Positions 482-16,946 of a DNA stretch of 18,523 nt are shown here, one piece after another. The stretch lies in contig JAFPXU010000110.1 of NCBI GenBank assembly GCA_017394605.1, positions 1-18,523 on the forward strand, given 5' to 3'. The position numbers and the translations under genes were made by a program. Origin of the DNA: Clostridia bacterium. GTDB lineage: Bacteria; Bacillota_A; Clostridia; Christensenellales; CAG-138. A model generated the notes under the pieces. It did no database searches. It had not been told where the DNA came from and saw nothing but the letters and a program-made list of their open reading frames with translations. Numbering within the stretch: the first letter of the stretch is position 1; the number at the start of each line of letters is the position of its first letter.

Positions 482-486
482 ATAAA

Positions 487-523
487 GCCCGGAGGAACTC
501 GGCTATGCCAAGTTCCTCCGGGC
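487..523. terminator. Strong GC-rich hairpin between convergent genes, probable bidirectional terminator
   Basis: The arms at 487-503 and 507-523 form a 17-bp stem with one C/A mismatch around a 3-nt TAT loop. The outer half of the stem is G/C-rich (GCCCGGAGGAACT). On the plus strand a run of six T lies at 540-545, about 16 nt beyond the stem. On the minus strand only TTT follows. It lies between the GH1 gene and the 3' end of the iolD operon and is well placed to stop transcription from both sides. Because the T tracts are weak or distant, the terminator call rests on stem strength and position. Confidence 0.6.
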
Positions 524-586
524 CATGTATTCAGGTGTGTTTTTTGAAACCATCCGAATGCTTTTTATCTGAAGCTTCTTGATCAG

Positions 587-2509
587 TTAATACTTTCTTG
601 CATCTTTCAAATGTGCAAGATGGTCCTGATACGCTTCCAGGTTTCGCGGATTTTCCGAAACCTCGGTATCGCCCACGCGCCACCAAGAGCCGTAGCCCTC
701 GGTCATGGATTTGGGCAGCACGCGGATGTCGAATACGACGGGTACGCCCTCGATCTGCTTTGCTTCTGAAATCGCAGCTTTCAATTCAGCGATTGAGTGA
801 ATCGTGAACGCTCTGCAGCCATAGCCCTCGGCGATCTTTGCGAAGTCGACCGGGATAAAACGGCCGGAGTGTTCACCGTCCTCGCCCCGGAAACGCAACT
901 CGGTACAGAGAGTATCATTGCCGTGACCGACCTGCAGATTGTTGATGCAGCCGAACGAGGCGTTGTTAAACACGCAGACGTTGATTTTCTTGTGCTCCTG
1001 AACGGCGGTCAAAAGCTCGGAATGAAGCATGATGAAGCTGCCGTCGCCGACCATCGCATATACATCACGGTCACCTATCGCGTATTTTACCCCCAGCGCG
1101 CCGGACACCTCGTAACCCATGCAGGAATACCCGTATTCCATGTTGTAGGTGTCAACGCCCCGTGCGCACCACATACGCTGCATATCTCCCGGCAGGGAGC
1201 CGGAGGAGCCGATGGCAACATCCTCGGGATCTATGGAGAAATTGATCGCGCCGAGCACGGTGGTCTGGGTCAGCGCGGCGTCAAGATCCTCTGCAAAGCG
1301 ATAGGCGCTTTGTGCGTTTGCATCATTTACTTCGGGCACATAACCGTCTCCAAAGGAAATGTGATGCAGGCGGTCAAGCTCCCGGAACCAGCGATCCCGT
1401 GCATCCTTGACTTCGTTCTGATACGGCGCCTTATAACCGCTCAGCGCATCGAGCAGTGCAGGCAGCGCGCGTTTTGCGTCGGCAATGACGGGAACGGCAT
1501 CCAGTTTGTATGCCTGGAACTCGGAAACATTGATGTTGATAAATCTCGCGTCATCTCTGAACAACCACTTCGAGGAGGTGGTGAAATCGGTATAGCGGGT
1601 GCCTACCCCGATGATGACATCCGCCTCCTTTGCGATCTCATTGGCAGCGGAGCAGCCGGTGACGCCGATGCCGCCAAGATTCAGGGGATGATCGTACACG
1701 ACAGCGCTCTTTCCGGCCTGTGTCTCACCGAACGGGATCCCGGTTGCTTCGGCAAACGCTTTGAACTCTGCATGCGCTTCGCTGTAACGAACGCCGCCGC
1801 CGCAGATCAGCAGAGGCTTTTTCGCGGATTTGATAACGGCCGCTGCCGCTTCAATCGCCTCAGGCTCAGGCAGCCGCCGGGCAAGGCGATGGACGCGCTT
1901 TTCGAAGAAGCTCTCGGGATAGTCATACGCCTCGCCCTCCACATCCTGGGGGATCGCGATGCATACCGCGCCGGTGTTGGCGGGATCCGTCAGCACGCGG
2001 AAGGCGGAGATCATGGCGCTCATCAGCTGTTCGGGGCGTACGATGCGGTCCCAGTAGCGGCATACGGCGCGAAAAGCGTCGTTGGTGGAGATCGAGAGAT
2101 CGTGGGACTGCTCGATCTGCTGCAGAACCGGATCGGGTTGACGGCAGGCATAAACGTCGCCGGGCAGAATCAGAACAGGGATGTTGTTGGCGGTTGCTGT
2201 GGCGGCTGCGGTAACCATGTTGGCAGCACCGGGACCGACAGAGGAGGTCACGGCAATGATTTTTTTGCGTTTCATCTGTTTGGCAAACGCCACTGCGGTA
2301 TGTGCCATACCCTGCTCGTTCTTGCCCTGCCAGACCTTCAGATGATGAGCTTCCTGACGAAGTGCCTGTCCAAGTCCGACAACATTGCCGTGCCCGGGCA
2401 GCATGATAACACCTTCTACAAACGGATGCTCGACACCGTCATAGGCAAGATACTGATTTTCGAGGAAGCGGACCAGCGCCTGCGCCATCGTCAAATGTAT
2501 GGTTTTCAT
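587..2509 (-). CDS. iolD: 3D-(3,5/4)-trihydroxycyclohexane-1,2-dione acylhydrolase (IolD)
   Basis: This ThDP-dependent enzyme opens the ring of the diketo-inositol made by IolE and yields 5-deoxy-D-glucuronate (step 3 of inositol catabolism, cytoplasmic). The protein has 640 residues, normal for IolD, with the three-domain ThDP fold: a PYR domain with the activating Glu65 in NEQGMAH, a central domain, and a C-terminal PP domain with the ThDP/metal motif GDGS (488-491) ending in NN (515-516). The near-C-terminal [13 protein letters not shown] block is typical of IolD. I chose the ATG at 2507-2509 because a GGAGGT site sits at 2514-2519; an upstream TTG at 2519-2521 overlaps that site and is unlikely. 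It is the last gene of the operon, 39 nt after iolB, and faces the hairpin at 487-523. No defect is visible. Confidence 0.96.
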
Positions 2510-2548
2510 AGACACCTCCAATATTGTGGCCGATTTGGAAATGATACG

Positions 2549-3340
2549 TCAGGCTTTAAAGATGTGATCATTTGCGTCGGGTTTCCAAAGCCATGTGTGC
2601 TCGGGGTCGTCGATGCGGGTCTTCTCCCACGGGTTGCCGGGAAGATGCCGGATCGCCCATGCATAGCACATTGCATAGCCGGGCGCAGCAACCTGGGAAT
2701 GGAATCCGTGATTGATCGTTGCCATTCCGTTGTGCTCTGTTTTGTATATCTCCCCGTTTGAGAAACCCGCGCCGAAGCCCTGCGGATGGTCGAACCGGTA
2801 GAAATAGACCTCCGGCTGCGGATGATGATGAGGCGGATAGCTTGACCAGCGGCCGGGGAAGTTGAGGACTTCTCCGAGCACCATGTTGGAGAACGGAGCG
2901 TTCTCGTAATCGAAGAACGTTTTGATCTCGCGGCGCATTGCACCCATCAGCTCGCCGTTTGCCCCGGCATGCTGTACCTGTACAGTCTCGGGCGTGAAGA
3001 GAACCGGTGCATAGTCGCGTTCGTTCAGCGTCTGCTGAATGAACAGTTCCGCATGGGAACGCGCTTCGATCTCAATGCGTATCCTGCGCGGACACAGCAG
3101 GCAGTAAGCCTCGTTTCGGAAGGTGTCGGGCCGGTCTGCTTCAACGGAGTTGCCGCTCCAGCGAAGAGAGACGCTGCCTTCAAAGAGCAGTACCGCCGTC
3201 TCCTTTTCGGGTTCTTCGATCATATATGTGTCGCCGGGTTCCATGACAAGCAGTCCGATATCCATCAGCATGCCAAGATCGTCGATGCTTGTATCAATAT
3301 ACGCGTTATACCCGCGTTTCGGTTTCTTGCTGAGATACAT
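2549..3340 (-). CDS. iolB: 5-deoxy-glucuronate isomerase (IolB)
   Basis: IolB isomerises 5-deoxy-D-glucuronate to 2-deoxy-5-keto-D-gluconate (DKG), the branch-point compound of this window. The 263-residue protein has the bicupin layout of the IolB/KduI family. The C-terminal cupin holds the metal site: PPHHHPQPE (His171-173, Glu177) and a later His in INHGFHSQ. The family's FPGRWSSYPPHHH block is intact. The ATG start lies 9 nt after the iolE stop, and the GAGGA ribosome site overlaps that stop codon, suggesting translational coupling. In most genomes the next steps would be IolC and IolJ; neither is encoded in this operon. Confidence 0.96.
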   Translation of the reverse strand: MYLSKKPKRGYNAYIDTSIDDLGMLMDIGLLVMEPGDTYMIEEPEKETAVLLFEGSVSLRWSGNSVEADRPDTFRNEAYCLLCPRRIRIEIEARSHAELFIQQTLNERDYAPVLFTPETVQVQHAGANGELMGAMRREIKTFFDYENAPFSNMVLGEVLNFPGRWSSYPPHHHPQPEVYFYRFDHPQGFGAGFSNGEIYKTEHNGMATINHGFHSQVAAPGYAMCYAWAIRHLPGNPWEKTRIDDPEHTWLWKPDANDHIFKA

Positions 3341-3349
3341 GTGCGTTCC

Positions 3350-4258
3350 TCACAGTCCGGTATGTTCCGCAATATAGCGGCGTCCTTTGATTGCATATTC
3401 GAGGGGATTTGCTTTTGCGGGATCCTGTTCCGCCTCAACAAGCAGCCAGCCTTCGTAATGCGCATCCGACAGCACTCTGAACACGGGATCGAAGTCCACA
3501 TCGCCGTCTCCCGGTACGGTGAATGCGCCGTTGCGTACGGACGTCAGAAAACTCCACTCATTTCTGCGGGCCTCCTCAACAACGGGGAGGCGCATGTCCT
3601 TCAAATGCACATGACCGACGCGGTCAACGTACTTTTTGAGCATCGCAAGCGGATCCTCTCCCGCAAAGGTGAAATGACCCGTATCATAGCACAGAAACAC
3701 GTAGCGGGGATCGGTGGCTGCCATCATACGGTCGGTTTCCTCCGCTGTCTGGACGACGGTTCCCATGTGATGATGGAAGCACAGCTTGAAACCCCGTTTG
3801 ACAGCGATCTTTCCGAGCGTATCAAGTCCTTTTGTGAAACGGGCCCACTCCGCGTCATTCATCACCGGTTTGTGGTTTCCGCTCAGGATGGGCGTATTAA
3901 CCTGGCCCTGAATAGAATAACTCTGCTCAGATACATTGATGCGGTTTGCACCGACGGCAGAAAGGAAGTCAAGTTCCTTCTCAAACGCGGCAATATTCTT
4001 CTCAAGCGGCTCCGTCAGCAAAAACGAGGAAAACCAGCGGCTTGCGATACGCATGCCCCGAAGGTCCAGTTCCCATTTCAGCTCTTTCGGATCATTCGGA
4101 TACTTATTTCCAATCTCACAGCCTGTGAACCCCGCAAGCGCCATCTCGCTGACGGTCTGGCGGAATGTGTTTTCCGCACCGAGTTCGGGCATGTCGTCAT
4201 TGCACCATCCGATGGGAGCAATGCCGAGCTTAACTTTTCCTGCGTCAAACAATGCCAC
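3350..4258 (-). CDS. iolE: Inosose dehydratase (IolE)
   Basis: IolE removes water from scyllo-inosose (2-keto-myo-inositol) to give the diketo-inositol used by IolD. The 302-residue TIM-barrel protein (AP-endonuclease-2/xylose-isomerase-like fold) begins with the IolE block LGIAPIGWCNDDMPELG. Putative metal ligands are visible at FHHHMG (His162-164), YDTGH (Asp192, His195), HVHLKD (His218) and a late VEAEQDP. The start is GTG at 4256-4258, supported by AAGGAG seven bases upstream. It follows the malic enzyme stop by 13 nt. The related isomerases IolI and IolH lack the N-terminal block, so IolE is the better call. Confidence 0.95.
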   Translation of the reverse strand: MALFDAGKVKLGIAPIGWCNDDMPELGAENTFRQTVSEMALAGFTGCEIGNKYPNDPKELKWELDLRGMRIASRWFSSFLLTEPLEKNIAAFEKELDFLSAVGANRINVSEQSYSIQGQVNTPILSGNHKPVMNDAEWARFTKGLDTLGKIAVKRGFKLCFHHHMGTVVQTAEETDRMMAATDPRYVFLCYDTGHFTFAGEDPLAMLKKYVDRVGHVHLKDMRLPVVEEARRNEWSFLTSVRNGAFTVPGDGDVDFDPVFRVLSDAHYEGWLLVEAEQDPAKANPLEYAIKGRRYIAEHTGL

Positions 4259-4271
4259 GTTAATACTCCTT

Positions 4272-5444
4272 TCAGATGCGGGCCACGCCGGTAGCCCGGG
4301 CGGCCTCGGCCACGGCCTTGGCCACGGCGGGTCCTACCCGCGGGTCGAAGGCCTTGGGGATGATGTAGTCGGCGCACAGCTCCTCGTCGGAGATCAACCC
4401 GGCCAACGCCCGGGCGGCGGCCATCTTCATCTCCTCGTTGATGTCGCTGGCCCGTACGTCGAAAGCGCCCCGGAAGATGCCGGGGAAGGCCAGAACGTTG
4501 TTGATCTGGTTGGGATAGTCGCTGCGGCCGGTGGAGATTACCCGGGCGCCGCCGGCTCTGGCGTCGTCGGGGAAGATCTCCGGGGTGGGATTGGCGCAGG
4601 CGAAGATGATGGGATCCTTCGCCATGGTCTTTACCATCTCCGTGGTGACGGTACCCGGGGCGGATACGCCGATGAACACGTCGGCGCCTACCAGCGCGTC
4701 GGCCAGGGTGCCGGCCTTCCGCTCCAGGTTGGTGACCTGGGCCATCTCCTCCTTGATCCAGTTGAGGCCGTCGCGGCCGGCGTAGATGGCGCCCTTGCGG
4801 TCGCACATGGTCACGTGGCGGAAGCCGGCGGAGAGCAGCAGCCGCACGATGGAGATGGCGGCTGCGCCGGCGCCGGAGGTGACGATCTTCACGTCCTCCT
4901 TCTTCTTGCCCACCACCTTCAGGGCGTTGGTCAGACCCGCCAGCGTGATGACGGCGGTGCCGTGCTGGTCGTCGTGGAAGATGGGGATATCGCACTTCTC
5001 CTTCAGCTTGCGCTCGATCTCAAAGCAGCGGGGAGCGGAGATGTCCTCCAGGTTGATGCCGCCGAAGGAGCCGGAGATGTTGTAGACGGTCTCCACGAAT
5101 TCATCCACGTCCTTGGTCTTCACGCACAGGGGGAAGGCGTCCACCCCGCCGAAGGACTTGAACAGCACGCACTTGCCCTCCATGACGGGCATGCCGGCCT
5201 CGGGGCCGATGTCGCCCAGACCCAGCACGGCGGTGCCGTCGGTGATGACGGCGCACAGGTTGTGGCGGCGGGTCAGCACATAGCTCTTCTCCGGGTCCTT
5301 CTGGATCTCCAGGCAGGGCTGGGCCACGCCGGGGGTATAGGCCAGGGACAGATCGTCCTTGCTCTTCACCGGCACCGTGGCCACCACCTCGATCTTTCCC
5401 CGCCACTCCTCGTGCAGCCGCAGGGATTCCTTCGCGTAATCCAT
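4272..5444 (-). CDS. NAD(P)-dependent malic enzyme (oxaloacetate-decarboxylating malate dehydrogenase), short bacterial form
   Basis: The enzyme oxidatively decarboxylates L-malate to pyruvate and CO2. The 390-residue product is the compact bacterial type. It carries YTPGVA with Tyr36, Lys96 in LFKSFGG, the metal ligands Glu133-Asp134 (NLEDISAP) and Asp158-Asp159 (FHDDQHGTA), and a Rossmann GAGAAA at 191-196 followed by CDRKG, which leans towards NAD. I chose the ATG at 5442-5444 because GGAGG lies eight bases upstream; another in-frame ATG at 5457-5459 has only AAGGA in front. The DNA is clearly more GC-rich than its neighbours (44 of 60 bases in 4681-4740 against 31 of 60 in 3601-3660), with strong G/C third positions. 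It may have entered the operon separately. It lies between larA-like and iolE, which suggests malate is an intermediate of this pathway. Confidence 0.95.
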   Translation of the reverse strand: MDYAKESLRLHEEWRGKIEVVATVPVKSKDDLSLAYTPGVAQPCLEIQKDPEKSYVLTRRHNLCAVITDGTAVLGLGDIGPEAGMPVMEGKCVLFKSFGGVDAFPLCVKTKDVDEFVETVYNISGSFGGINLEDISAPRCFEIERKLKEKCDIPIFHDDQHGTAVITLAGLTNALKVVGKKKEDVKIVTSGAGAAAISIVRLLLSAGFRHVTMCDRKGAIYAGRDGLNWIKEEMAQVTNLERKAGTLADALVGADVFIGVSAPGTVTTEMVKTMAKDPIIFACANPTPEIFPDDARAGGARVISTGRSDYPNQINNVLAFPGIFRGAFDVRASDINEEMKMAAARALAGLISDEELCADYIIPKAFDPRVGPAVAKAVAEAARATGVARI

Positions 5445-5476
5445 ATCTCGTTCCTCCATGTTTTTCCTTAATTGAT

Positions 5477-6730
5477 TCAGGAATTTGTCACTATCGGGAG
5501 CGTGGAGCCGCCAAAAGGCATTGCCAGCACCTTTGCGTCCGGACCGAGTTTTTCAAACGCCCTATCGAGCGCGATCTGTGCTGACGGCTGTGGCGTCAGG
5601 AAAACGGAACGGACAAAATCATCGTCCAGATCCGATACGAGATCCACCTCCGCGCGTTCCAGTACCATAGCGATGGCTGCGGCCTTATGCCCGCCGAGTT
5701 TGAAGTCACGGCCAATGCGTTCAATCAGATCATGCGGTGTCCGGGCGGTAGTCATCCACTCCTCGAAGGTGCGCTCGCCCAGACCTTCCCGACACGACCC
5801 GATCAGGATGATCACGCCGCCGTCCCTGACTGCGTGCTTGGCGTTGTCCAGTGCTTTCTGCGTCTGATACAGATTCAGATCTTTCGGTGCGCCGCCCTGT
5901 GAAACGATCACGATATCTGCCGCTTCCTTCAGCTCCTTGCGGTACAGCCGGTCGAGGAATCTGCATCCCGCGCGATGTGCCGCTGTGACGTCGCCCGCGA
6001 CTGCGCAGAGGATTTCTTTGTGCTCGGATAGCACGACATTCAGAATGAAATCGACACCCACCATTGCGGCTGCTTCTTCAATGTCCATGCGCAGGGGGTT
6101 TGTCTCCAGCGCACCCGCGCAGCAGGAGGGGAGCACCATGCGGCTGTGATTTGCCTGGATCGCCGCGCGTGTCGACACGCCAGGCATGATCGCCTTTGCG
6201 CCCCCCGAATAACCGGCGAAATAGTGGTATTCGATGTTGCCCAGGCAGATCCTGCGGTTCGCCTCCGCTACGACGCGGGTGATATCCACAGGCGTACCTC
6301 GCGTTGTTCTTCCGAAGGAAACGCAATCCTCGGGATCGCTGTTGACGCAGCGGATCTCATTCCAGGCCCTTTCGCCTGCGAGCTTTTGCATTTCGGCCTC
6401 GGTCTGTTTTCTGTGACTGCCCAGTGCAAATACGAGGGTAATGTCCTCGGGCCGTATACCGCCCGAATACAGTTCATCCAAAAGAGCGGGCATCACCACA
6501 GAAGTCGGCATCGGGCGGGTGATATCGCTGGTAATGATCGCGACTGTTTCACCGGGATGCACGATTTCACGAAGGAGCGGAGAGCCGATCGGCTCTTTCA
6601 AAGCGCGCTCCACTTCCGCCGAGCCGGTCAGTGCCAGCGGAACGGTATTAGCGTGCAGTTCGCCGATCAGGTTTTTATCCGGCACATCGACTTCCTGAAA
6701 GCCGGTACCGCAGCCGAAACGGAGCCTCAT
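5477..6730 (-). CDS. LarA-family nickel-dependent 2-hydroxyacid racemase (candidate malate racemase)
   Basis: LarA-family enzymes use a nickel-pincer nucleotide bound to a Lys to racemise or epimerise 2-hydroxy acids. The 417-residue protein has the family landmarks: SDITRPMP (Arg72), GSHR (His106), the cofactor block YHYFAGYSGGAKAIMPG with His169 and the cofactor-attaching Lys179, NHSRM (His195), and YQTQKALDNA (Lys292). These correspond to Arg75, His108, His174, Lys184, His200 and Lys298 of lactate racemase as I recall the numbering. The cofactor genes larB, larC and larE are not in the window. Family members include lactate and malate racemases and sugar-acid epimerases, so the substrate cannot be read directly. 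The adjacent malic enzyme makes malate the most attractive candidate. The gene lies 9 nt after the transketolase gene. Confidence 0.9.
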   Translation of the reverse strand: MRLRFGCGTGFQEVDVPDKNLIGELHANTVPLALTGSAEVERALKEPIGSPLLREIVHPGETVAIITSDITRPMPTSVVMPALLDELYSGGIRPEDITLVFALGSHRKQTEAEMQKLAGERAWNEIRCVNSDPEDCVSFGRTTRGTPVDITRVVAEANRRICLGNIEYHYFAGYSGGAKAIMPGVSTRAAIQANHSRMVLPSCCAGALETNPLRMDIEEAAAMVGVDFILNVVLSEHKEILCAVAGDVTAAHRAGCRFLDRLYRKELKEAADIVIVSQGGAPKDLNLYQTQKALDNAKHAVRDGGVIILIGSCREGLGERTFEEWMTTARTPHDLIERIGRDFKLGGHKAAAIAMVLERAEVDLVSDLDDDFVRSVFLTPQPSAQIALDRAFEKLGPDAKVLAMPFGGSTLPIVTNS

Positions 6731-6739
6731 AACGACCTT

Positions 6740-7702
6740 TTACTTCCTTTCCACTACAGCTTTGACCTGCTCGGCGATGTGAGCGGCCGTCAGGCCGAAG
6801 CGTTCCATAAGATATCCCTGTGTTCCGACTTCGCCGAACTCATCCTCGATGGCAACGCAGGCGGCGGGAACGGGACAGCGCTCCGCAAGCACTTCGAGAA
6901 TCATATCATAAAGTCCGCCGTGGCGGTTTGCGTTCTCTGCCACGACGACGGCGCGGCATTTCCGCGCCCAGGCCTCAACCGCATCCGCATCGATCGGCTT
7001 TATTGTAAAACAATCAACGACCGCGGCGGATAAGCCCTGTGCTTCAAGAGAAGCAGCGGCTTTCATAGCTTCATTCAGCATAATGCCGGCGGCAAAGATT
7101 ACCACGTCCGTGCCGTCGCGAAGTGTGACTGCCTTGCCGATCGTCAGGTCGGCGCCGTCTTCATAGATCCTCGCATACTGCTTTCTTCCGACACGGATGT
7201 ATTTGATTCCGGGACGGTTTATGCTCTGTTTCAACACACTGACAAGGCAGGCGGGATCGGATGCGTCGATCACCGTCGCATGGGGAAGCGCGTTAAACAG
7301 AGCGACGTCCTCGAAAGGCATGTGTGTACCGCCGTTCATCGTAGCGGTAACGCCGGGATCTGTTCCGATGACCGTGATGTCGTTTTTTGCATAGCCGCCG
7401 GACAGAAAAATCTGGTCGTAGATGCGGCGGGAGGCAAACGTACCGAAACTGTGAATGATCGGCTTGAAGCCGGCGGCAGCCAACCCGGCAGCCACACCGG
7501 CCATATTCGCTTCCGCAATACCGCAGTCGATCGCGCGATCGCCGTGAGTCTTCGACCATTTCAGTGTACCGGAGCAGCTCATCAGATCGGCATCCAGAAA
7601 AATAACATCGGGGTCCCTCTCCGCAAGCTCTGCTACCGTTTGCCCGATCACATCCTTACAGAGACGAGGATCCAACTCTCCGTTGTAGACAATATTCGTC
7701 AT
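6740..7702 (-). CDS. Transketolase, C-terminal subunit (PYR and C-terminal domains), divergent
   Basis: This 320-residue protein is the second half of a split transketolase. It holds the pyrimidine-binding domain with the catalytic Glu64 in GIAEANM and the SFGTFASRRIYDQI block, followed by the transketolase C-terminal domain. Compared with ordinary split transketolases, the substrate loop is unusual. Where THAGxxxGEDGxxHQ is expected it reads TDPGVTATMNGGTHM (114-128), so the phosphate-contacting His becomes Asp115 and the Glu-Asp pair becomes Met122-Asn123. The N-terminal phosphate-contacting Arg appears to be Lys16. The Arg in VGRKQ (173) is kept. The ribosome site GGAGGG lies inside the end of the upstream gene, and the two halves are only 4 nt apart. 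I infer an altered sugar substrate; alternatives are an ordinary transketolase or a DXS-like enzyme, the latter unlikely from length and motifs. Confidence 0.9.
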   Translation of the reverse strand: MTNIVYNGELDPRLCKDVIGQTVAELAERDPDVIFLDADLMSCSGTLKWSKTHGDRAIDCGIAEANMAGVAAGLAAAGFKPIIHSFGTFASRRIYDQIFLSGGYAKNDITVIGTDPGVTATMNGGTHMPFEDVALFNALPHATVIDASDPACLVSVLKQSINRPGIKYIRVGRKQYARIYEDGADLTIGKAVTLRDGTDVVIFAAGIMLNEAMKAAASLEAQGLSAAVVDCFTIKPIDADAVEAWARKCRAVVVAENANRHGGLYDMILEVLAERCPVPAACVAIEDEFGEVGTQGYLMERFGLTAAHIAEQVKAVVERK

Positions 7703-7706
7703 TGTC

Positions 7707-8549
7707 TCAGCCCTCCAATGCAGCGAGCCTGGAGCTCAGCTCGGCGGTCCAGCTTGAAAACCGCTCGTCAGTCACCGGCATGCTGTGATTCATGGCGGTG
7801 TTTTCCACTTCGTCGACGCCGTGACCCTTTATCGTATCGAGGACGATTGCATAGGGCTTATCGCCGCCGCTGCGCGTACGTTCGAGCGCCGCTGCGATTG
7901 CCTCAACGTCGCCGCCGTCAACCTTGACGGTGTCAAATCCGAACGCTTCCATTTTGGCGGTAAAATCGCCCATGGGCAGGACTTCGTCGAGATAGCCGTC
8001 AAGCTGACGTTTGTTCCAGTCGATCAGTACGACAAGGTTGGAAAGCTTTTTTGCGCTTGCGAACAGGAACGATTCCCAGCACTGGCCTTCCTGCATTTCT
8101 CCGTCACCGACGATCAGGAACACGCGGTTGTTTCTGCCCTTGAGTTTATTGCCCAGAGCAAGACCGGCTGCCTGTGAAGTGCCCTGTCCAAGAGATCCGG
8201 TCGTCATATCCACACCGGGAGTTTTGTTGCGGTCACAATGGCTCGGGAGCCGTGTGCCGCCGCGGTTAAGAGTTTTCAGTTCTTCATAGGGGAAAAAGCC
8301 TTTCAGTGCCAGAGTGGCGTACACCGCCGGACCGGCATGCCCTTTTGACATGACAAGATAGTCGCGATCCGGCCATTTGGGATCCTCGGGGTTCACCCGC
8401 ATCTCACGAGCGTAGAGTACCGCCATAGTATCGGCAATGCTCATAACACCGCCGACATGTCCGGAGCCGATCGAATGGATCGCATCAAGAGCTGCCATCC
8501 GGATTCGAACGGCAAACGCCTGCAAAGCTTTCTTTTCCTGCAATTCCAT
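7707..8549 (-). CDS. Transketolase, N-terminal ThDP-binding subunit
   Basis: This 280-residue protein is the first half of a split transketolase. It carries the ThDP/metal motif GDGEMQEGQCWES (148-160) closing at the Asn in IDWNKRQLDG (Asn179), and the active-site His residues in SGHVGG (His31), SKGH (His71) and LPSHCD (His104), plus the GSLGQG turn (118-123). The usual WHG near the C-terminus reads NHS here. It pairs with the following gene to form a full enzyme that moves a two-carbon ketol unit between sugars. The start is supported by AAGGAGGG upstream. Split transketolases are common in anaerobes; the placement inside an inositol operon is what stands out. A split transketolase (SqwGH) is known to act on a sulfonated sugar in the sulfo-transketolase pathway, so phosphate-free anionic substrates have precedent. 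Confidence 0.94.
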   Translation of the reverse strand: MELQEKKALQAFAVRIRMAALDAIHSIGSGHVGGVMSIADTMAVLYAREMRVNPEDPKWPDRDYLVMSKGHAGPAVYATLALKGFFPYEELKTLNRGGTRLPSHCDRNKTPGVDMTTGSLGQGTSQAAGLALGNKLKGRNNRVFLIVGDGEMQEGQCWESFLFASAKKLSNLVVLIDWNKRQLDGYLDEVLPMGDFTAKMEAFGFDTVKVDGGDVEAIAAALERTRSGGDKPYAIVLDTIKGHGVDEVENTAMNHSMPVTDERFSSWTAELSSRLAALEG

Positions 8550-8559
8550 AGCGCCCTCC

Positions 8560-9813
8560 TTACTGCTGGGGGATCGTTGACCCGTGCCGCAGAGCTTTTA
8601 CCACGGGGAGTTCCTCCCCGCTCAGGAAGCGGATCAACGCGCCGCCGCCGGTACAGATATAGTCGATCTGATCCGTAAAGTGATACTTTTCGGTCGCTGT
8701 GATGCTGTCGCCGCCGCCGAGAACCGTAAAGGCCCCGGTGTCCGCGAGGGCCTGCCACAGCGTTCTGGTGCCGTATTCGCTCGGTTCCTGTTCAAACACG
8801 CCCATCGGCCCGTTGACGAATACGGTTTTCGCGGAAAGGATGTGCGTCCGATAGCAGGCTGCCGTCTCATGGCCGATGTCTACCGCACTGACAGAGGAGG
8901 GAATACTTCCGAGATCTGCCTCCCGGCGGTTGCCGTTTTCAACCCACGCAAGATCATTCGGAAGCACGATCTTATGACCGAAAGACTCGTACAGTGATTT
9001 TGCGCGATCGAAAAATTCGGCATAGTTGGACTTGACTATAAAATCGTAACTGCCCTGGCCGATGTTGTGCCCCTGTGCAATCAGGAAGATGTTGGCGACG
9101 AGGCCTCCCGTAAGAATCGTATCGGCGGCGCCGCGCTCCAGAACGGTCTGCATCATCTGGAACGCGTCGGAAATCTTTGCGCCTCCGAGCACGAAAACAC
9201 AGGGACGTGCCGGCTCTTCCATGATTGAGGAAACCGTACAGTATTCGGTTTCGAACAGACGCCCCATAGCAGAGGGCAGTACCTGTTCAAACCCGCAGAG
9301 ACTGGGCTGATCACGATGTGCGGCCGCAAAAGCATCACACACATAGCAGTCCGCAAGAGGCGCGAGTTTTTCAACCAGCAGGGTTTTTGCCTGCTGCTCA
9401 TGTGACAGCTTCAGTTTCATCTCGAACAGCGTCTGTTCCTCGGATACGTACCGGACGTTGTCCAGAAGCAGAATATCGCCGTCTTTAAGATTGCGGATCA
9501 TGTCCCGCGCCGCAGGACCGCAGACATCGTCGATCCAGAGGACTTCCCGGCCGAGAAGCCTGCTCAGGACCGCTGCGTGCGGCCTGGTTGTGTAAAAGTT
9601 CTTGTATTCGATGTCACTGCCCTGATGTGCCAGCAGAACGACCTTCGCACCGCTGTCCGACAATTCACGGATCGTCGGCACGCAAGCCGCGATGCGGTTG
9701 ATGCTTTTCAGCGTTCCCGTACCGCGGTCCACGGGCTGATTGATATCCACGCGGCACAGGACGGTCTTCCCGTGTACTGCCAGTTCATCCAGCGTTCTGA
9801 TCCCGAATCGCAT
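8560..9813 (-). CDS. Phosphoglycerate kinase homologue of archaeal type, altered substrate site
   Basis: PGK transfers the acyl phosphate of 1,3-bisphosphoglycerate to ADP. This 417-residue protein has the two-domain PGK fold: RVDIN (Asp23, Asn25), AHQG (63-65), LLLDNVRY (Arg121), DAFAAAHR (Arg167), LGGAKISD (Lys213) and a C-terminal GGGDS nucleotide loop. The style (AHQG, LDNVRYVSEE, DAFAAAHRDQPS) matches archaeal rather than bacterial PGKs. The Arg that normally follows AHQG/SHLG (Arg65, a ligand of the 3-phosphate) is replaced by Ser66, with an altered loop after it. That suggests a ligand lacking the usual phosphate. Nucleotide-site residues look complete, so ATP formation from an acyl phosphate is plausible. 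It lies directly after the GAPDH homologue, the usual partner. The ordinary glycolytic PGK is presumably elsewhere in the genome. Confidence 0.92.
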   Translation of the reverse strand: MRFGIRTLDELAVHGKTVLCRVDINQPVDRGTGTLKSINRIAACVPTIRELSDSGAKVVLLAHQGSDIEYKNFYTTRPHAAVLSRLLGREVLWIDDVCGPAARDMIRNLKDGDILLLDNVRYVSEEQTLFEMKLKLSHEQQAKTLLVEKLAPLADCYVCDAFAAAHRDQPSLCGFEQVLPSAMGRLFETEYCTVSSIMEEPARPCVFVLGGAKISDAFQMMQTVLERGAADTILTGGLVANIFLIAQGHNIGQGSYDFIVKSNYAEFFDRAKSLYESFGHKIVLPNDLAWVENGNRREADLGSIPSSVSAVDIGHETAACYRTHILSAKTVFVNGPMGVFEQEPSEYGTRTLWQALADTGAFTVLGGGDSITATEKYHFTDQIDYICTGGGALIRFLSGEELPVVKALRHGSTIPQQ

Positions 9814-9843
9814 ATTGAACCGAACCTCTCTTTGACAAATTGA

Positions 9844-10896
9844 TTATTTGAACCGGCCGATCTTAAGGTATTCGTTGGTCTTCCCGGTCCCTTCCTCACG
9901 GGTCAGCTGCATTTTCATGGCAGCGCGGATAGCGTCGATGGTTTCGGGGATGGTTACGCTCTCCTGCGGAATGTTGATGGCGAACATGATATCATTGCCG
10001 CTCTCCACGATGCTGTCCTCCCAGAGGCCGATCTCATACATATCGCCTCTGCGGTTGCCAAGATCGCGCGCATACTTGAAGAGGCTGGCGTTGCCCTTGA
10101 ACCCCTCGTCGATCGTGACCGTGCGGATGCGCGGATGCTTGCGGAAGGCTTCAAGCGCCATTTCACGGGTGATCTTCTTTCCGTCCTTTGCGGTTGCCAT
10201 AACAGTGATGATATGCCCGTGTGTGACAGGCGTATGGACGAGGATGCCGGTAGCCTCGACATGAGGCATGATTGTCATCAGATCGACCGCCTGATGTGAA
10301 GGGGCCTTGTCAATCTGCAGAGCGTTGGTCAGCCCCCGGTGATAGTCGCCGGGATCCGCAACGCGGCGGATGATCGTAATGGCCACTTTCTCAATGCCGA
10401 TGATCCGGTCAAGGCAGTCCACCGCGCGGATAAGGCCGGTGGTATTGCAGCTCGTCAGCTTGAGATAATTCTGGCCGACGCCCTTCTCATAGTTGGCATA
10501 TCCGTGGAAGAACACGTCTGCGACGGAGTTCTTTTCACCGCCCTGAAAGATTGCCTTTACGCCGACCTTCTCATACAGCAGCTTATTCTTTGCTCCGACG
10601 CCGCCGGGAGAAGAATCCAGCATAATATCAACGTTTCTGCACAGATCCTCGAAGGTTCCGGCCACAGGGATGTCATAACGGTCAAAAGCGTCCCTGTCCG
10701 CGCCGTCGACCAGATACAGGTTGTACTTGACGTTGTTCGCGCCGATCATATCGTTTTCCCGCAGCGCACGGATCGACAGCGTTGGCATAAGATCCGCAAT
10801 GCCTACGAGCTCCATGTCGCCCTGCAGAGCGACGCCGTCAGCAAGACGCTGACCGATCGTGCCATAACCGGCTACGCCGACTTTGATTTTTGCCAT
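9844..10896 (-). CDS. Type II (archaeal-type) glyceraldehyde-3-phosphate dehydrogenase homologue
   Basis: The 350-residue protein begins with a Rossmann motif (VGVAGYGTIGQR) and has the type II GAPDH catalytic block TSCNTTG with nucleophile Cys150, then IRRVADP (177-182) and the general-base region THGH (His226, His228). This is the archaeal GAPDH family; ordinary bacterial GAPDH has SCTTNC and a different sequence. Two active-site stretches deviate from the archaeal pattern as I remember it. PSHHGPD reads PSHQAVD (199-205), and PTTLMHLH reads HTPVTHGH (221-228). These lie near the substrate and phosphate sites, so a changed aldehyde substrate is plausible. The fold predicts oxidation of a 2-hydroxy-aldehyde to an acyl phosphate with NAD(P). 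It sits next to the PGK homologue, as expected for a coupled pair. An ordinary GAPDH role is not excluded. Confidence 0.92.
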   Translation of the reverse strand: MAKIKVGVAGYGTIGQRLADGVALQGDMELVGIADLMPTLSIRALRENDMIGANNVKYNLYLVDGADRDAFDRYDIPVAGTFEDLCRNVDIMLDSSPGGVGAKNKLLYEKVGVKAIFQGGEKNSVADVFFHGYANYEKGVGQNYLKLTSCNTTGLIRAVDCLDRIIGIEKVAITIIRRVADPGDYHRGLTNALQIDKAPSHQAVDLMTIMPHVEATGILVHTPVTHGHIITVMATAKDGKKITREMALEAFRKHPRIRTVTIDEGFKGNASLFKYARDLGNRRGDMYEIGLWEDSIVESGNDIMFAINIPQESVTIPETIDAIRAAMKMQLTREEGTGKTNEYLKIGRFK

Positions 10897-10923
10897 AAAA
10901 GTACTTCCTTTCCTATGCTGAAA

Positions 10924-11937
10924 TCAGATCTCGTCAATTCTGACGGGCCGATTGTTTTTCAGGGACTTGGCGCATGCGAGAGCCAGCTTGATCGAAACAA
11001 GACCGTCCTCGATGCCGACCCACGGTTCGGTTCCTTTTTCAATGCAGTTGATGAATTCCCGGATCTCCGCCTGATACGAGCCCATATAGCGCTCCAGGAA
11101 GAACCACAGCGGCTTTTCGGAGGTTACGCCGTCCACCGTTGAAAGCACGATGTTGGATTCGCTGTCGTTGGAGTTGGTCACACAGCCTTTGGAACCAAAC
11201 ACTTCGCCGCGCTGATCGTATCCGTAAACCGCCTTGCGGGACCCGTCAATCGTTGCCAGGGCACCGTTTGAAAGCTTGAGGGTGACCGTCGCGGTATCCA
11301 CATCGCCGGCTTCGCCGATCGCGGGATCGATGAGGCATGCACCCTGTGCATACAGTTCCACGACTTCCTGACCGGAAAGATAGCGGACCATGTCGAGATC
11401 ATGGATCATCATATCCATGAAGATGCCGCCGGAAACCGCGGCATACTCTGCCGGAGGCGGTTCCGGGTCGCGCGAGGACACGCGGACATACTGCACTTCG
11501 CCGATCCTGCCCTCCTCGACCGCTTTGCGCATGGCCCGATAATTGTGGTCGTAGCGGCGGTTAAAGCCGACCTGATATACGAGTTTCTTGGGGGAGGCCA
11601 GAAGCGCCGCCTTGACCTCTTCGATCCGCTCAATACTCTGGTCGATGGGCTTTTCACAGAAAATGTGTTTTCCTGCGGCGATTGCTTCCAGCGAAAGCTG
11701 CGCGTGCAGGTTGGTGGATGCGCAGATCAGAACCGCGTCAATGCGCGGATCTTCAAGGATCTTTCTGTAATCCTGATAGATGCCTTCGATACCGACAGAC
11801 TCTGCCCAATCAGCGACTGCGGGTTTCATATAGGGATCAGCGATTGCCAGGATACGCGCGTTGGAAACACCGGTCAGAATACTCTTTGCGTGGACCTGAC
11901 CGATGCGGCCTGCGCCAATGATGCCAACATTGATCAT
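10924..11937 (-). CDS. iolG: Inositol 2-dehydrogenase (IolG), Gfo/Idh/MocA family
   Basis: IolG oxidises myo-inositol to scyllo-inosose with NAD and opens the pathway. The 337-residue protein starts with the Rossmann motif VGIIGAGRIGQVH, has the family EKP triad Lys96, the GFNRRYD block, and FMDMMIHDLDMVRYL holding the catalytic Asp175 and His179. These features are typical of IolG rather than of other Gfo/Idh/MocA members. I chose the ATG at 11935-11937, which has GGAGGAG seven bases upstream and puts the Rossmann strand at the N-terminus. A longer reading from 11988 would add 17 residues without a good ribosome site and would overlap the preceding gene. It lies 47 nt after the mutase-like gene and 27 nt before the GAPDH homologue. 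Closely related scyllo-inositol or sugar dehydrogenases are the main alternative. Confidence 0.92.
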   Translation of the reverse strand: MINVGIIGAGRIGQVHAKSILTGVSNARILAIADPYMKPAVADWAESVGIEGIYQDYRKILEDPRIDAVLICASTNLHAQLSLEAIAAGKHIFCEKPIDQSIERIEEVKAALLASPKKLVYQVGFNRRYDHNYRAMRKAVEEGRIGEVQYVRVSSRDPEPPPAEYAAVSGGIFMDMMIHDLDMVRYLSGQEVVELYAQGACLIDPAIGEAGDVDTATVTLKLSNGALATIDGSRKAVYGYDQRGEVFGSKGCVTNSNDSESNIVLSTVDGVTSEKPLWFFLERYMGSYQAEIREFINCIEKGTEPWVGIEDGLVSIKLALACAKSLKNNRPVRIDEI

Positions 11938-11984
11938 AATGCTCCTCCAATGCAACAATATTTGAGTGTGGGATCGCTCCCGGA

Positions 11985-13550
11985 TCATTCGCGATACGGT
12001 TCGCCCTTGCCCTCGACGAGTGAGTCGTAAGTGCGCTGCACCTTTGCCCAGTTCTGGTCGCGGTCAAGCGCGACCCCTCTTCCGACGCCGGATACGATAA
12101 GACCAACGCCTTTCTTTTCGATCATATCTCCAAACTCGCGCAGGAGTGCAGGCGCGCTGCCCGGCTCTGTGGAGCGGCCGTCGAATATGATATGAACGAA
12201 GACATCCTTCACTCCCGCATCACGCGCCATGTCTATGAGCGCAAGGGGATAGTCGATGGATCCGTGAGAGGACTTTTTCGTGAGCAGTGCAAACAGATGC
12301 AGTGCCGTACCGCGCTCTCTGACGCCTTCCAGTGTCTTCAAAAATACCGGATTTGCAGCGAAGGAGCCGTCCTTCATTGCGTTGTCCAGCCGCACGTCAT
12401 CCTGCAGCACCACACGGCCGGAGCCGAGGTTGATATGGCCGGCCTCTGAATTGCCCGTTTTTCCTTCGGCAAGACCTACAGCCGGACCGGAAGCCTCAAG
12501 GACAGCATACGGATGGTTTTCGAGCAGGGCGTCCCACTCAGGCGTTGAAGCCGTGAAGATCGGGTTGTTCTCTGTGGGCTTATCGAGTCCCCAGCCGTCG
12601 CAGATCAGAAGAAGGACCTTGCCGGCATCCGCAAAGCGGAACAGAGGCGAGCCGGTCATTTCTTCGGGCTTCTCCAGTCCCATGGCGGAGAGAACGGTCG
12701 GCGCCACGTCGCAAAGCCTGCCGGTTTTGCGGAGCTGTTCCACACCGGCGCCAAGCGCGACGCAGGCGACCAGGTTCGTGGTATGCGAAACGTGAGGCTT
12801 GCCCTCCGGCGTGTGCAGAACTTCGATGTTGCCGTGGTCTGCCGTTACCAGCACGGTATAGCCTTTTTCCCGGGCGTAGGAGACCACTTTTCCCACATAC
12901 CTGCTGATCGCTTCGCAGGCAACGGGCTTTGCGGCGTCACTGGACGTGTGTCCGATTACATCGCCGTTGGCGAAGTTCGTGACGATAAAATCATATCCCT
13001 TGTCCAGACCTTCACACAGGGTTTTCGCAACATCGGGGAGCCGAAGCTCGGGGACGGTTTCAAACGGCACTCCTTTGGGAGACGGTATGCGGATGTCGTC
13101 CTCCCCCTCAAACGGGTGCTGATTGCCGCCGTTGAAAAAGAAGGTCACGTGAGCGAACTTCTCGCTTTCGGAAAGATGCAACTGCGTTTTGCCGTTTTCG
13201 GCTAGAACCTGCGCCAGCGTCTTTTGTACCTTGCTGGGAGCAAAAGCGATGGGCAGATAGGTATAGCGCTCGCTGTACATGGTGAGGATCACAAAATCCA
13301 GGGGGTCGATCTTTTCGCGATCAAAACCCTTGAAATCCGGATCGGTGAAGGCGTCGGTGAGTTCTGTCTCGCGCTCGCCTCTGCGGCAGCAGAAGATCAC
13401 ACCGTCACCCGGCTTGACAAGACCGACAGCTTCACCTTTCGCATCTACCAGATTCATCGGCTCGAAGTGATATTCAGAACCGCCGGCCTCGTAGCGTTTT
13501 TCAACGGCGCGGGCCAGGGCGTCGCCGCCGGAATACTTATAAGCACACAT
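11985..13550 (-). CDS. Circularly permuted cofactor-independent phosphoglycerate mutase-like protein
   Basis: All parts of GpmI are present, but the order is rotated. Residues 1 to about 303 match the canonical C-terminal part: RGER (Arg57, Arg60), EKFAHVTFFFNGG (Lys131), NFANGDVIGH (Asp197, His201), TADHGN (Asp238, His239), HTTN (His256) and the usual C-terminal PEEMTGSPLF. After a linker near 304-310, residues 311-521 match the canonical N-terminal part: ICDGWGL (Asp318), the nucleophile Ser368 in GNSEAGH, His429, FDGR, and GRGVALDRDQNW (Arg491, Arg497), ending where canonical proteins continue into residue 1 here. The length, 521, is normal. Asp154 of the canonical DGRD motif is Ser460, and GGVHSH reads KSSHGS. 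The phosphatase domain becomes contiguous, and the transferase domain is opened. AAGGAG precedes the start by eight bases. Substrate is uncertain: 2-/3-phosphoglycerate or a related compound. Confidence 0.9.
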   Translation of the reverse strand: MCAYKYSGGDALARAVEKRYEAGGSEYHFEPMNLVDAKGEAVGLVKPGDGVIFCCRRGERETELTDAFTDPDFKGFDREKIDPLDFVILTMYSERYTYLPIAFAPSKVQKTLAQVLAENGKTQLHLSESEKFAHVTFFFNGGNQHPFEGEDDIRIPSPKGVPFETVPELRLPDVAKTLCEGLDKGYDFIVTNFANGDVIGHTSSDAAKPVACEAISRYVGKVVSYAREKGYTVLVTADHGNIEVLHTPEGKPHVSHTTNLVACVALGAGVEQLRKTGRLCDVAPTVLSAMGLEKPEEMTGSPLFRFADAGKVLLLICDGWGLDKPTENNPIFTASTPEWDALLENHPYAVLEASGPAVGLAEGKTGNSEAGHINLGSGRVVLQDDVRLDNAMKDGSFAANPVFLKTLEGVRERGTALHLFALLTKKSSHGSIDYPLALIDMARDAGVKDVFVHIIFDGRSTEPGSAPALLREFGDMIEKKGVGLIVSGVGRGVALDRDQNWAKVQRTYDSLVEGKGEPYRE

Positions 13551-13564: not shown

Positions 13565-14341
13565 TCAGTGAATGCGCGGTGCCGGATCCTCTGCGTTTTC
13601 GGGGCAGAAGCGACCCTCGCCCGGAAAGAGGTTGAGAAGCTCGTCGAAGTGATGAATGATGCAGTCCGGACGGTTTTCCTCGGTCAGCTTGAACTCCAGC
13701 CCGCCGGGGTACTCCGCGCCGACCGTTCCGGCGAAACAGGACTGCTTCGCGCCGATGATATCGCGTTTCAGGTTATCGCCGACAAAGCAGCTCTCTTCCG
13801 GACGAACACCGGATTCGCTGAGTGCCAGGAAATAGATCGCGGGGTGCGGCTTTCTGAGCATAGTGACCGAAGACTGCTGTACCGTGCAGAACAGGTCGCG
13901 AATCCCGTCGCGGTCGAGCCACTCGTCGATTTCGACCGTCCCGATCAGATCGCTGATGATGCCGACCTTATAACCGCGTGCGCGCAGTTCCCGGACGGTT
14001 TCAATGCCCTTTTCCACCACAACACGTTCGCCTTTTGCCCGGCGGAAGCAGTAGGTCAGCTCAACAGCCGCCTTTTCGATGCGGTCACGGTCCCATTCGG
14101 GCACCAGCCAGCGGGTCCACAACATGGTTTCCGGCGCTTCACACATGTATTTCAACGCCCACTCGCGGTAACCGTCATAGCGCTTGTTGAGGAAGTCGTA
14201 GAATTCGTCGGGATCCATATCGGTCCCGCACAGCTCCTTGATGCGCGTACGTGCTTCATGGATAAAGGGCAGATTGTTTTCGTCCACTTCACGGAACGTG
14301 CCGCCCAGATCCAGAAAAATAGCCTTGATATTCTCAAGCAT
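13565..14341 (-). CDS. HAD-superfamily hydrolase-like protein, copy 1
   Basis: The 258-residue protein has the HAD-IA layout: motif I FLDLGGTF (nucleophile Asp near residue 11), an alpha-helical cap, motif II GIISD, motif III RKPHPAIYF and motif IV FVGDNLKRD. The second motif-I Asp, the usual acid/base in HAD phosphatases (DxD), is Gly. Some phosphatases such as YihX also have DxGN, so activity is not ruled out. I chose the ATG at 14339-14341 with GGAGGG eight bases upstream; it begins 2 nt after the stop of the preceding HAD gene, and the longer upstream reading would overlap that gene. It is the last of four tandem paralogues and lies 14 nt before the mutase-like gene. The substrate is unknown; a sugar- or inositol-phosphate is only a guess. 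Confidence 0.88.
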   Translation of the reverse strand: MLENIKAIFLDLGGTFREVDENNLPFIHEARTRIKELCGTDMDPDEFYDFLNKRYDGYREWALKYMCEAPETMLWTRWLVPEWDRDRIEKAAVELTYCFRRAKGERVVVEKGIETVRELRARGYKVGIISDLIGTVEIDEWLDRDGIRDLFCTVQQSSVTMLRKPHPAIYFLALSESGVRPEESCFVGDNLKRDIIGAKQSCFAGTVGAEYPGGLEFKLTEENRPDCIIHHFDELLNLFPGEGRFCPENAEDPAPRIH

Positions 14342-14343
14342 CG

Positions 14344-15858: not shown

Positions 15859-15882
15859 TTGCTCCATCTCCTTTATGCGTTG

Positions 15883-16666: not shown

Positions 16667-16681
16667 TACGAAAACGTTTGC
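16667..16681. promoter_or_regulatory. LacI-family operator in front of the inositol operon
   Basis: TACGAAAACGTTTGC is a near-palindrome centred on AACGTT and fits the LacI/CcpA-type operator pattern. It lies at about +3 to +18 relative to the start predicted from the minus-strand promoter at 16691-16719, where a bound repressor would block transcription. It matches the site at 16899-16913 in 14 of 15 bases. Confidence 0.85.
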
Positions 16682-16690: not shown

Positions 16691-16719
16691 ATTGTAACTC
16701 AGCGTGTGCAATTTGTCAA
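16691..16719 (-). promoter_or_regulatory. Sigma-A-type promoter of the inositol operon
   Basis: Read on the minus strand, a perfect -35 TTGACA (16714-16719) is followed after exactly 17 bases by the -10 TACAAT (16691-16696). The predicted start is near 16684, directly before the operator, and HAD copy 4 begins about 40 nt further on. It is the only strong minus-strand promoter I noticed for the whole gene run. Confidence 0.85.
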
Positions 16720-16865
16720 CAACAAATGCCTTGGGAAAGGGTGCGTTTTTAATGGAAATGCCGGTTTGCCCTTGTCTGTATTCTCACGAGGTCCGCCCGG
16801 TTTGCTGACGCTCTGTCGTTCATAAGGCTTCCGCTGCTCTCCGGATGCGGAAAAGTTTCTGTGCA

Positions 16866-16894: not shown

Positions 16895-16898
16895 AATA

Positions 16899-16913: not shown

Positions 16914-16946
16914 TTGGCGTTTGAGTTATTTTTTCTTGGAGGAGTT

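Follow-up and report, generated by a model that had tools for sequence, protein, structure and literature searches.

How might a bacterium degrade myo-inositol when the operon that begins the task lacks the enzymes known to complete it? The question is raised by a stretch of 18,523 nucleotides from a Clostridia bacterium (GenBank assembly GCA_017394605.1, contig JAFPXU010000110.1, positions 1 to 18,523), referred to here as the window. One operon in the window encodes homologues of the enzymes that form 2-deoxy-5-keto-D-gluconate (DKG) from myo-inositol, together with a split transketolase (TK), homologues of glyceraldehyde-3-phosphate dehydrogenase (GAPDH) and phosphoglycerate kinase (PGK), a LarA-type racemase and a malic enzyme. 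A preliminary description, made from the sequence alone, proposed a new branch of inositol catabolism in which transketolase cleaves DKG to D-malic semialdehyde, which is then converted to malate and pyruvate. The comparative tests able to break that reading were mostly favourable to it, and we consider the existence of such a branch probable.

Inositol genes and the absence of IolC

Window proteins were annotated by Pfam and NCBIfam scans, and the two agree (Table 1). IolG, IolE and IolD each pass the NCBIfam equivalog cut-offs, as the preliminary description would have it; the fourth member of its set, IolB, was recovered at the level of the Pfam family. No IolC, IolJ or IolA was found among the scanned proteins of the window, in agreement with what had been claimed for the operon.

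The absence of IolC beyond the window was judged from relatives, by whole-genome searches of 48 genomes out of those that hold the 80 related loci described below. The preliminary description had listed iolC or iolJ elsewhere in the genome, co-induced with the operon and sufficient for growth on inositol, as an observation that would speak against the branch. IolC was over cut-off in none of the 48 genomes (best match 199 bits, cut-off 300); IolC genes elsewhere in the class score 358–421 bits. PfkB-type kinases score below the IolC cut-off in all 48 genomes. Class II aldolases with at most 46% identity to an IolJ candidate are present in nine of the 48 (E 1e-50). This IolJ comparison does not discriminate, because a match of more than 50% identity is found in only four of ten IolC-positive genomes, including the query’s own, and is missing from the other six.

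Proposed pathway

From the genes present, we infer the following substrates and products below DKG, and the C2 acceptor. IolG, IolE, IolD and IolB would convert myo-inositol to DKG. The dedicated split transketolase would then act on DKG without prior phosphorylation, transferring its C5–C6 unit to an aldose phosphate and releasing D-malic semialdehyde. The acceptor is most likely glyceraldehyde 3-phosphate, which would become xylulose 5-phosphate. The GAPDH-like enzyme would oxidize the semialdehyde, with phosphate, to D-malyl phosphate, from which the PGK-like enzyme would form D-malate and ATP. A LarAH6 racemase would convert D-malate to L-malate, and malic enzyme would yield pyruvate and CO2.

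The chemistry had been argued from the resemblance of DKG to xylulose 5-phosphate, and a derivation by hand agrees. Viewed from its C6 end, DKG corresponds to xylulose 5-phosphate: both are D-threo ketoses, and DKG bears a carboxylate where the other bears its phosphate. Breaking the C4–C5 bond yields D-malic semialdehyde, the oxidation of which gives D-malate. Malic enzyme uses L-malate, so the D configuration creates the need for a racemase ahead of it. If the C2 unit is returned by way of pentose phosphate metabolism, a hand count puts the yield from three inositols at five pyruvate, three CO2, eleven NAD(P)H and five ATP; the electron balance of this tally was checked and holds.

Conservation of the cluster in related loci

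Genome contigs were scanned with an alignment of 25 GAPDHs; this gave 339 relatives, of which the best 80 loci (83–97% identity) were kept. Window proteins were mapped onto these loci, a match being at least 35% identity. Gene counts were confined to 31 loci in which the sequence flanking the GAPDH gene extends for 9 kb or more in each direction, the other 49 being excluded for their short flanks. The loci derive from Clostridia, Lachnospiraceae, Oscillospiraceae, Christensenella, Spirochaetales and Synergistaceae, largely from metagenome-assembled genomes (MAGs), many of rumen or gut origin.

Among the 31 full-flank loci, PGK was present in 30, LarA in 27, both transketolase chains (TKN and TKC) in 20 and malic enzyme in 16, and IolE, IolB and IolD in 26 each. 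At least two of the three iol genes were found in 26 of these loci; the exceptions were L040, L059, L062, L078 and L080, of which L078 contains GAPDH and PGK only and is uninformative either way. Gene orders vary among the loci (e.g. L068, L074, L058 and L053). In L068 the order is IolG-IolE-IolB-IolD-IolG-TKN-TKC-GAPDH-PGK, behind ABC transporter genes, in L074 it is IolG-GAPDH-PGK-LarA-malic enzyme-TKN-TKC-IolE-IolB-IolD-IolG, and in L058 it is IolE-IolB-IolD-IolG-TKN-TKC-GAPDH-(two unknown genes)-PGK-LarA. The grouping exceeds chance, since the same genes recur together across many species in differing orders.

Distribution in an independent sample of the class

Because the loci had been fetched by GAPDH, and were biased in that respect, 292 genomes were drawn evenly across the class; the centre of the set (G003) was left out, leaving 291. 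IolE was over cut-off in 22 of these, 10 of which also had IolC, and the cluster-type GAPDH (type II, GAPDH-II) was found in 10 of the 291 (E 1e-30). It is apparent that this GAPDH tracks IolE and avoids IolC, an association that the preliminary description had put forward as a check. It was present in 7 of the 22 IolE-positive genomes versus 3 of the 269 others (Fisher P=5.4e-7) and, among IolE-positive genomes, in none of 10 with IolC versus 7 of 12 without (P=0.005), neither test being corrected for phylogeny. The IolE and GAPDH genes lie within about 11 kb of each other in five of the seven (G070, G075, G145, G259 and G293). In G137 they are on two contigs, both of which end within IolD, and in G168 they are 157 kb apart, the iol operon containing a transaldolase-like gene instead.

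Transaldolase-like genes of this kind occur in other IolC-negative genomes as well. Judged from open reading frames (ORFs) in the fetched iol stretches, six of the 12 have GAPDH without transaldolase, G168 has both, and G107, G080, G122 and G132 have the transaldolase-like gene only. The twelfth, G202, has neither, and has no IolD in the 19.5 kb read. The five transaldolase-like genes lie within the iol operons at L162:8074-9150, L163:8910-9986, L164:10362-11441, L165:9425-10501 and L176:10494-11570. The L162 protein gave a best score of 125 bits, below the model cut-off of 367, and the other four were recognized by their similar starts rather than by scans. The gene is accompanied by methylmalonate-semialdehyde dehydrogenase (MMSDH/IolA; L162, 590 bits, cut-off 448.5) or by a SauS-like acylating aldehyde dehydrogenase (L164, 603 bits, cut-off 600). 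This gene content suggests a sister branch in which transaldolase would convert DKG to malonic semialdehyde and fructose 6-phosphate. By analogy, it also suggests that IolE-positive, IolC-negative genomes may use a transketolase/transaldolase pair for inositol as is the case for sulfoquinovose.

Substrate sites of the GAPDH- and PGK-like enzymes

In PGK, the 3-phosphate of the substrate is held by Arg65, Arg122 and Arg170, the 2-oxygen by Asp23 and Asn25, and the bridge oxygen by His62 (PMC7729029). These positions were compared in three sets: the cluster PGK of the window with 69 others from the 80 loci (70 in total), 30 of 42 canonical PGKs from the same genomes, and 11 distant cluster-type PGKs from the class sample (42–63% identity). 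In all 70 cluster PGKs the Arg65 position is Ser (HQGSDI; residue 66 in the window’s protein), and the equivalents of the Asp, the Asn, Arg38, Arg122 and Arg170 are retained. The canonical PGKs have Arg in 21 cases and Lys in 9 (HxG[RK]PK), and the archaeal structure 2cun also has Lys. The distant proteins have Asp in nine cases, Ser in one and Gly in one. Overall, therefore, 81 cluster-type PGKs have Ser (71), Asp (9) or Gly (1) at this position, and none has Arg or Lys. The loss of one of three phosphate-holding charges matches the replacement of phosphate by carboxylate in the proposed substrate.

The catalytic SCNTTG motif of the window’s enzyme was conserved in 92 of 92 cluster GAPDHs. 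All of them have His-Gln-Ala where three aligned archaeal structures show His-His; contact between this position and the substrate phosphate is conjectural.

The PGK- and GAPDH-like enzymes might nevertheless be what their families imply, i.e. with the operon’s circularly permuted phosphoglycerate mutase (iPGM) they might form an extra lower-glycolysis set for triose phosphate, DKG being phosphorylated and split by a kinase and an aldolase elsewhere. The PfkB-type kinases and class II aldolases noted above are in keeping with this, as are the iPGM homologue itself and the five of 48 genomes with no other PGK (G019, G023, G024, G039 and G046). In 41 of the 48 genomes, however, a canonical full-length PGK (493–578 bits) occurs alongside the cluster type (341–399 bits); of the other two genomes, G042 combines the cluster type with a fragment, and G007 has the canonical form only. 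A canonical PGK was counted in 42 of the 48. Type I GAPDH was over cut-off in 40 of the 48 (46 have some match, several of them fragmentary or very weak), and a normal iPGM was over cut-off in 13 of 16 genomes with the permuted form. In most of these genomes, therefore, the operon’s GAPDH and PGK are second copies rather than the glycolytic set. An extra glycolytic set would, moreover, leave the malate racemase and malic enzyme without a purpose, and it has to contend with the altered Arg65 position in every cluster-type PGK, with the lack of an IolC over cut-off in any of the 48 genomes, and with the occurrence of permuted iPGM in just 25 of the 80 loci (many contigs being short). We regard it as very unlikely.

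The split transketolase

The C chain of the window has Lys, Cys, Asp and Asn at the positions of Arg318, Ser345, His416 and Asp424 in human transketolase and in the split transketolase 6yaj, residues that we take to function in phosphate binding. An active-site model includes these residues (PMC8016368). Among 54 cluster chains and four relocated ones (see below), all 58 have Asp and Asn at 416 and 424; the Lys is present in 51 of them and the Cys in 50, and Arg474 is always kept. The 416/424 changes were considered as a specific signature of the cluster enzyme and rejected in that capacity: 8 of 17 other split transketolases carry them as well, so they are support and not proof.

The transketolase might instead serve ordinary pentose phosphates, some other enzyme cutting DKG and the malate coming from elsewhere. 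This would account for the absence of transketolase from 11 of the 31 full-flank loci, 7 of which have iol genes (L005, L011, L018, L026, L027, L033 and L073), and from four Spirochaetes loci with shorter flanks. Transketolase was sought in the genomes of six of the seven loci (all but L027), and in five an orthologue was found elsewhere, with N/C-chain identities of 91/88% (G035), 91/87% (G036), 70/68% (G010), 70/65% (G012) and 56/57% (G030). In G035 and G036 the relocated TKN-TKC pair adjoins a malic enzyme of 87–88% identity. No split transketolase was found in the sixth genome, G007 (that of L018). The genomes also carry further split transketolases, and these, with the substituted residues, add to the evidence against a pentose phosphate role, which appears quite unlikely.

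Split transketolases are numerous in some of these organisms. The 4.5 Mb genome G026, which contains L062, has sixteen Transketolase_N matches (two of them weak), a large split-transketolase family that probably includes enzymes with several unknown donors. Another split transketolase unit, at L147:3483-8324 and L142:54-4884, is surrounded by genes for a dehydrogenase and for proteins resembling L-fucose isomerase and RpiB (named from protein starts).

LarA, malic enzyme and modules outside the iol context

The window’s LarA passes the NCBIfam cut-off for LarAH6 malate racemase, consistent with the D-/L-malate racemase activity predicted for it earlier, and malic enzyme follows it directly. 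A distant LarA relative in L169 scores 600 bits on the same model.

Several loci contain the GAPDH in other company. At L169:1689-9376 the order is GAPDH-PGK-TKN-TKC-malic enzyme-LarA, accompanied by an ABC transporter and a zinc dehydrogenase, with iol genes not in the stretch read; L168, in the same genome, is an iol cluster that also includes GAPDH, PGK and malic enzyme. At L178:3554-12157 the full module occurs with no iol genes in the stretch, beside a zinc dehydrogenase, a short-chain dehydrogenase/reductase of the D-mannonate oxidoreductase family (370 bits, cut-off 281) and TRAP-like genes. Transporter types in these two loci were judged from protein starts rather than profile scans. 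Both modules probably serve other sugar acids. At L062:205-14147, GAPDH-PGK-TKN-TKC lies beside IolN (276 bits, cut-off 245), an IolO-like epimerase (273 versus 300) and an IolM-like dehydrogenase (187 versus 450). At L180:6753-8493, the gene immediately after GAPDH is short and IolN-like (185 bits versus 245), with no PGK in the 17 kb read.

At L059:2376-13479, GAPDH and PGK are followed by an enzyme of the tartrate dehydrogenase family (504 bits, cut-off 470), a family linked to D-malate too. It was considered as a clean D-malate dehydrogenase replacement for LarA and malic enzyme. The case is ambiguous: the protein also passes the 3-isopropylmalate dehydrogenase model (413 bits, cut-off 393), and C4 sugar acids are suggested by its neighbours, which resemble PdxA, tartronate semialdehyde reductase and KDPG aldolase.

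L059 and L062, with its IolN and IolO-like proteins, raise the possibility that a different 5-keto acid is cleaved, yielding tartaric rather than malic semialdehyde, and that LarA epimerizes tartrate. Malate racemases do epimerize tartrate promiscuously (PMC11770544). The IolE, IolD and IolB-like proteins of the window would, however, yield a 2-deoxy acid, and malic enzyme stands directly after LarA; a tartrate route is therefore considered highly improbable.

The contexts seen in L169, L178, L062 and L059 agree no less well with a C4 hydroxy-acid semialdehyde as substrate of the GAPDH than with triose phosphate. It seems somewhat more probable than otherwise that the cluster represents a portable, carboxylate-isostere form of glycolysis, comprising transketolase, the GAPDH- and PGK-like enzymes, malate racemase and malic enzyme, which would draw ATP from D-malyl phosphate. 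Its upstream feeds would include iolGEDB, an IolM/IolN/IolO-like route, and other sugar acids with other transporters. On such an account, duplicated enzymes of central metabolism would have shifted from phosphate- to carboxylate-bearing substrates, and the transaldolase sister branch would complete, for inositol, a kinase-free transketolase/transaldolase pair like that for sulfoquinovose.

Organization of the operon

The features identified in the window are listed in Table 1. The genes named in the preliminary description are all present, open and on the minus strand, and the operon proved larger than stated there: it comprises 15 genes (16641-587) with intergenic gaps of -25 to +30 bases, the four HAD-family genes and the permuted iPGM having been omitted. 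From 5′ to 3′ the order is four HAD-family genes, permuted iPGM, IolG, GAPDH-II, PGK, TKN, TKC, LarA, malic enzyme, IolE, IolB-like, IolD.

Table 1. Features of the inositol operon and its surroundings in the window. Scores are in bits, followed by model cut-offs where given.
Feature	Position	Strand	Basis or remark
LacI-family regulator	16845..17963	+	Divergent from operon; longest ORF
Promoter-like site of operon, TTGACA-17-TACAAT	16691..16719	-	11/12 matches
LacI-type operator-like site GAAAACGTTT	16670..16679	.	Immediately downstream of operon -10
HAD-family hydrolase 1	15883..16641	-	PF00702, 76.5; first gene of operon
HAD-family hydrolase 2	15136..15867	-	Pfam/NCBIfam scan
HAD-family hydrolase 3	14344..15111	-	Pfam/NCBIfam scan
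HAD-family hydrolase 4	13565..14368	-	Pfam/NCBIfam scan
Circularly permuted BPG-independent phosphoglycerate mutase	11985..13550	-	Profile 214-504 on residues 13-304; iPGM_N start on residues 389-517
IolG, inositol 2-dehydrogenase	10924..11988	-	TIGR04380, 446 > 355
Type II GAPDH-like; proposed phosphorylating D-malic semialdehyde dehydrogenase	9844..10896	-	NF003251, 391 > 185; TIGR01546, 292 > 233
PGK-like; proposed D-malyl-phosphate kinase (ATP-forming)	8560..9813	-	PF00162, 384; Arg/Lys of HxG[RK]PK is Ser (HQGSDI)
Split transketolase, N chain (ThDP-binding)	7707..8549	-	PF00456, 176.5
Split transketolase, C chain; proposed DKG transketolase	6740..7702	-	Sequence comparison with human TK and 6yaj
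LarAH6-family nickel-dependent malate racemase (predicted)	5477..6730	-	NF052593, 567 > 500
Malic enzyme	4272..5459	-	PF00390, PF03949
IolE, inosose dehydratase	3350..4258	-	TIGR04379, 405 > 290
IolB-like isomerase	2549..3340	-	TIGR04378, 99 < 205; PF04962 KduI/IolB, 165 > 24
IolD, trihydroxycyclohexanedione hydrolase	587..2521	-	TIGR04377, 901 > 715
Terminator-like hairpin past IolD	486..524	-	18 pairs, 12 G-C; 1 seen versus 0.4 average in shuffles

Motif I of the four tandem HAD proteins, inspected by eye, is D-x-G and not D-x-D. The halves of the permuted iPGM are swapped likewise in 16 of 16 related genomes examined, and catalytic-looking motifs are present by eye. HAD1 was found in 22 of the 80 loci; the HADs and permuted iPGM are confined to the group of loci that resemble the window.

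In the 361-base stretch containing the promoter-like site of the operon, two promoter-like sites were seen versus an average of 0.5 in shuffles. The longest ORF of the divergent LacI gene contains a promoter-like site (16866-16894) and an operator-like site (16902-16911), and its true start is likely to be the ATG at 16948. The latter site is a second copy of GAAAACGTTT, beginning at 16902. The divergent LacI/HAD1 pair is retained in 18 loci, and 9 of these have a similar site upstream of HAD1. These GAAAACGTTT sites were spotted by eye and counted afterwards, and an automated repeat search for an operator palindrome found none.

A PHP-domain gene follows LacI at 17975-18523. In the same stretch of nine related loci there is a PfkB-family kinase gene (e.g. 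L037:2146-3069), sometimes adjoining a PHP gene. The kinase was considered as a hidden IolC and rejected; one of the nine was scanned, with no TIGR04382 match.

Points against the transketolase branch

A number of observations weigh against the proposed branch. Within the operon, the IolB-like protein is below the equivalog cut-off, and its assignment rests on the KduI/IolB Pfam family and gene position. A role in the pathway was sought for the four HADs and the permuted iPGM and none was found, so the earlier statement that each extra gene has a job fails for these five genes. Among the 48 genomes, IolA/MMSDH is over cut-off in two. The argument from paralogy fails in the five genomes that have the cluster-type PGK only and in the eight without type I GAPDH over cut-off; these genomes, mostly MAGs, may be incomplete. 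The Asp and Asn shared with other split transketolases belong here as well.

Among the loci, L018 has iol genes and GAPDH, and lacks PGK, LarA and malic enzyme; its genome (G007) has no split transketolase or second PGK. It either speaks against the scheme or represents a decayed or incomplete copy. The four Spirochaetes loci have no transketolase in the shorter stretches fetched, and in three of them the LarA-like gene is only 37–39% identical and not classified. Finally, the loci, having been fetched by GAPDH similarity, are mutually related, and the statistics of the class sample ignore phylogeny.

Literature and implications

A description of a transketolase route for inositol was not found in the openly licensed PubMed Central literature, and a subscription paper may exist. 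PMC5808187 describes, in its matching passages, ordinary iolBCDEG genes and has transketolase only in a reference; a word search of the main texts of PMC7583248 and PMC11770544, on malate racemases, gave no occurrence of inositol or transketolase. None of the enzyme families is new; the novelty would lie in the pathway, in the donor used by transketolase and in the step through D-malyl phosphate.

If the branch operates as proposed, gut and rumen bacteria would degrade inositol, for example from dietary phytate, by a route that is easily overlooked. A large survey took iolB, iolC, iolD and iolE as four core genes, required three, and put a missing fourth down to incomplete genomes, assembly errors or frameshifts (PMC9430895); it is for this reason that the route could escape notice. 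The branch would also provide a new transketolase donor and a new case of substrate-level phosphorylation, involving a C4 acyl phosphate, and would give one malate racemase family a physiological function. It would further caution that annotation as GAPDH or PGK does not guarantee a part in glycolysis. Of 40 pig isolates, 21 grew on inositol without a recognized cluster, which indicates that inositol pathways are still missing; these are other species, with no link to the present route shown (PMC12838507).

Comparison with known systems

The canonical inositol pathway of the Bacillus subtilis type (IolG-E-D-B, then IolC-IolJ-IolA) has the same first four enzymes, to DKG. It differs in that the window lacks IolC, IolJ and IolA, and in that DKG would be cut unphosphorylated at C4–C5, whereas the canonical cut is at C3–C4. 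The route IolG-IolM-IolN-IolO of Thermotoga maritima is another kinase-free path, from inositol to a keto acid. In the related locus L062, GAPDH-PGK-TK is joined by IolN and an IolO-like gene, whereas the window has IolE, IolD and an IolB-like protein.

The sulfo-transketolase pathway (SqwGH) has a sulfonate where the window route would have a carboxylate, proceeds by two C2 removals ending in isethionate, and is not known to include a GAPDH/PGK step. No sulfoquinovose families were named in general scans of the window; the relatives were not searched for them. SqwGH had been cited as the precedent for the proposed cleavage, and this is borne out: in rumen Clostridia and Sphaerochaetaceae, it takes C2 units from an anionic ketose that is not phosphorylated and passes them to glyceraldehyde 3-phosphate (PMC13219744). 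The branch is transcribed in rumen Caproiciproducens, Ca. Limivicinus and Sphaerochaetaceae, and Caproiciproducens has a transaldolase gene as well (PMC13219744; PMC11659671).

The nearest solved structures by sequence are archaeal, namely type II GAPDH (2czc and 1cf2) and archaeal-type PGK (2cun), from which the window enzymes differ by His-Gln for His-His and by HQGSD for HQGKP, respectively. The window’s LarA belongs, over cut-off, to the same NCBIfam family as the LarAH6/MAR2 malate racemase of Thermoanaerobacterium thermosaccharolyticum; the latter was characterized as a lone enzyme.

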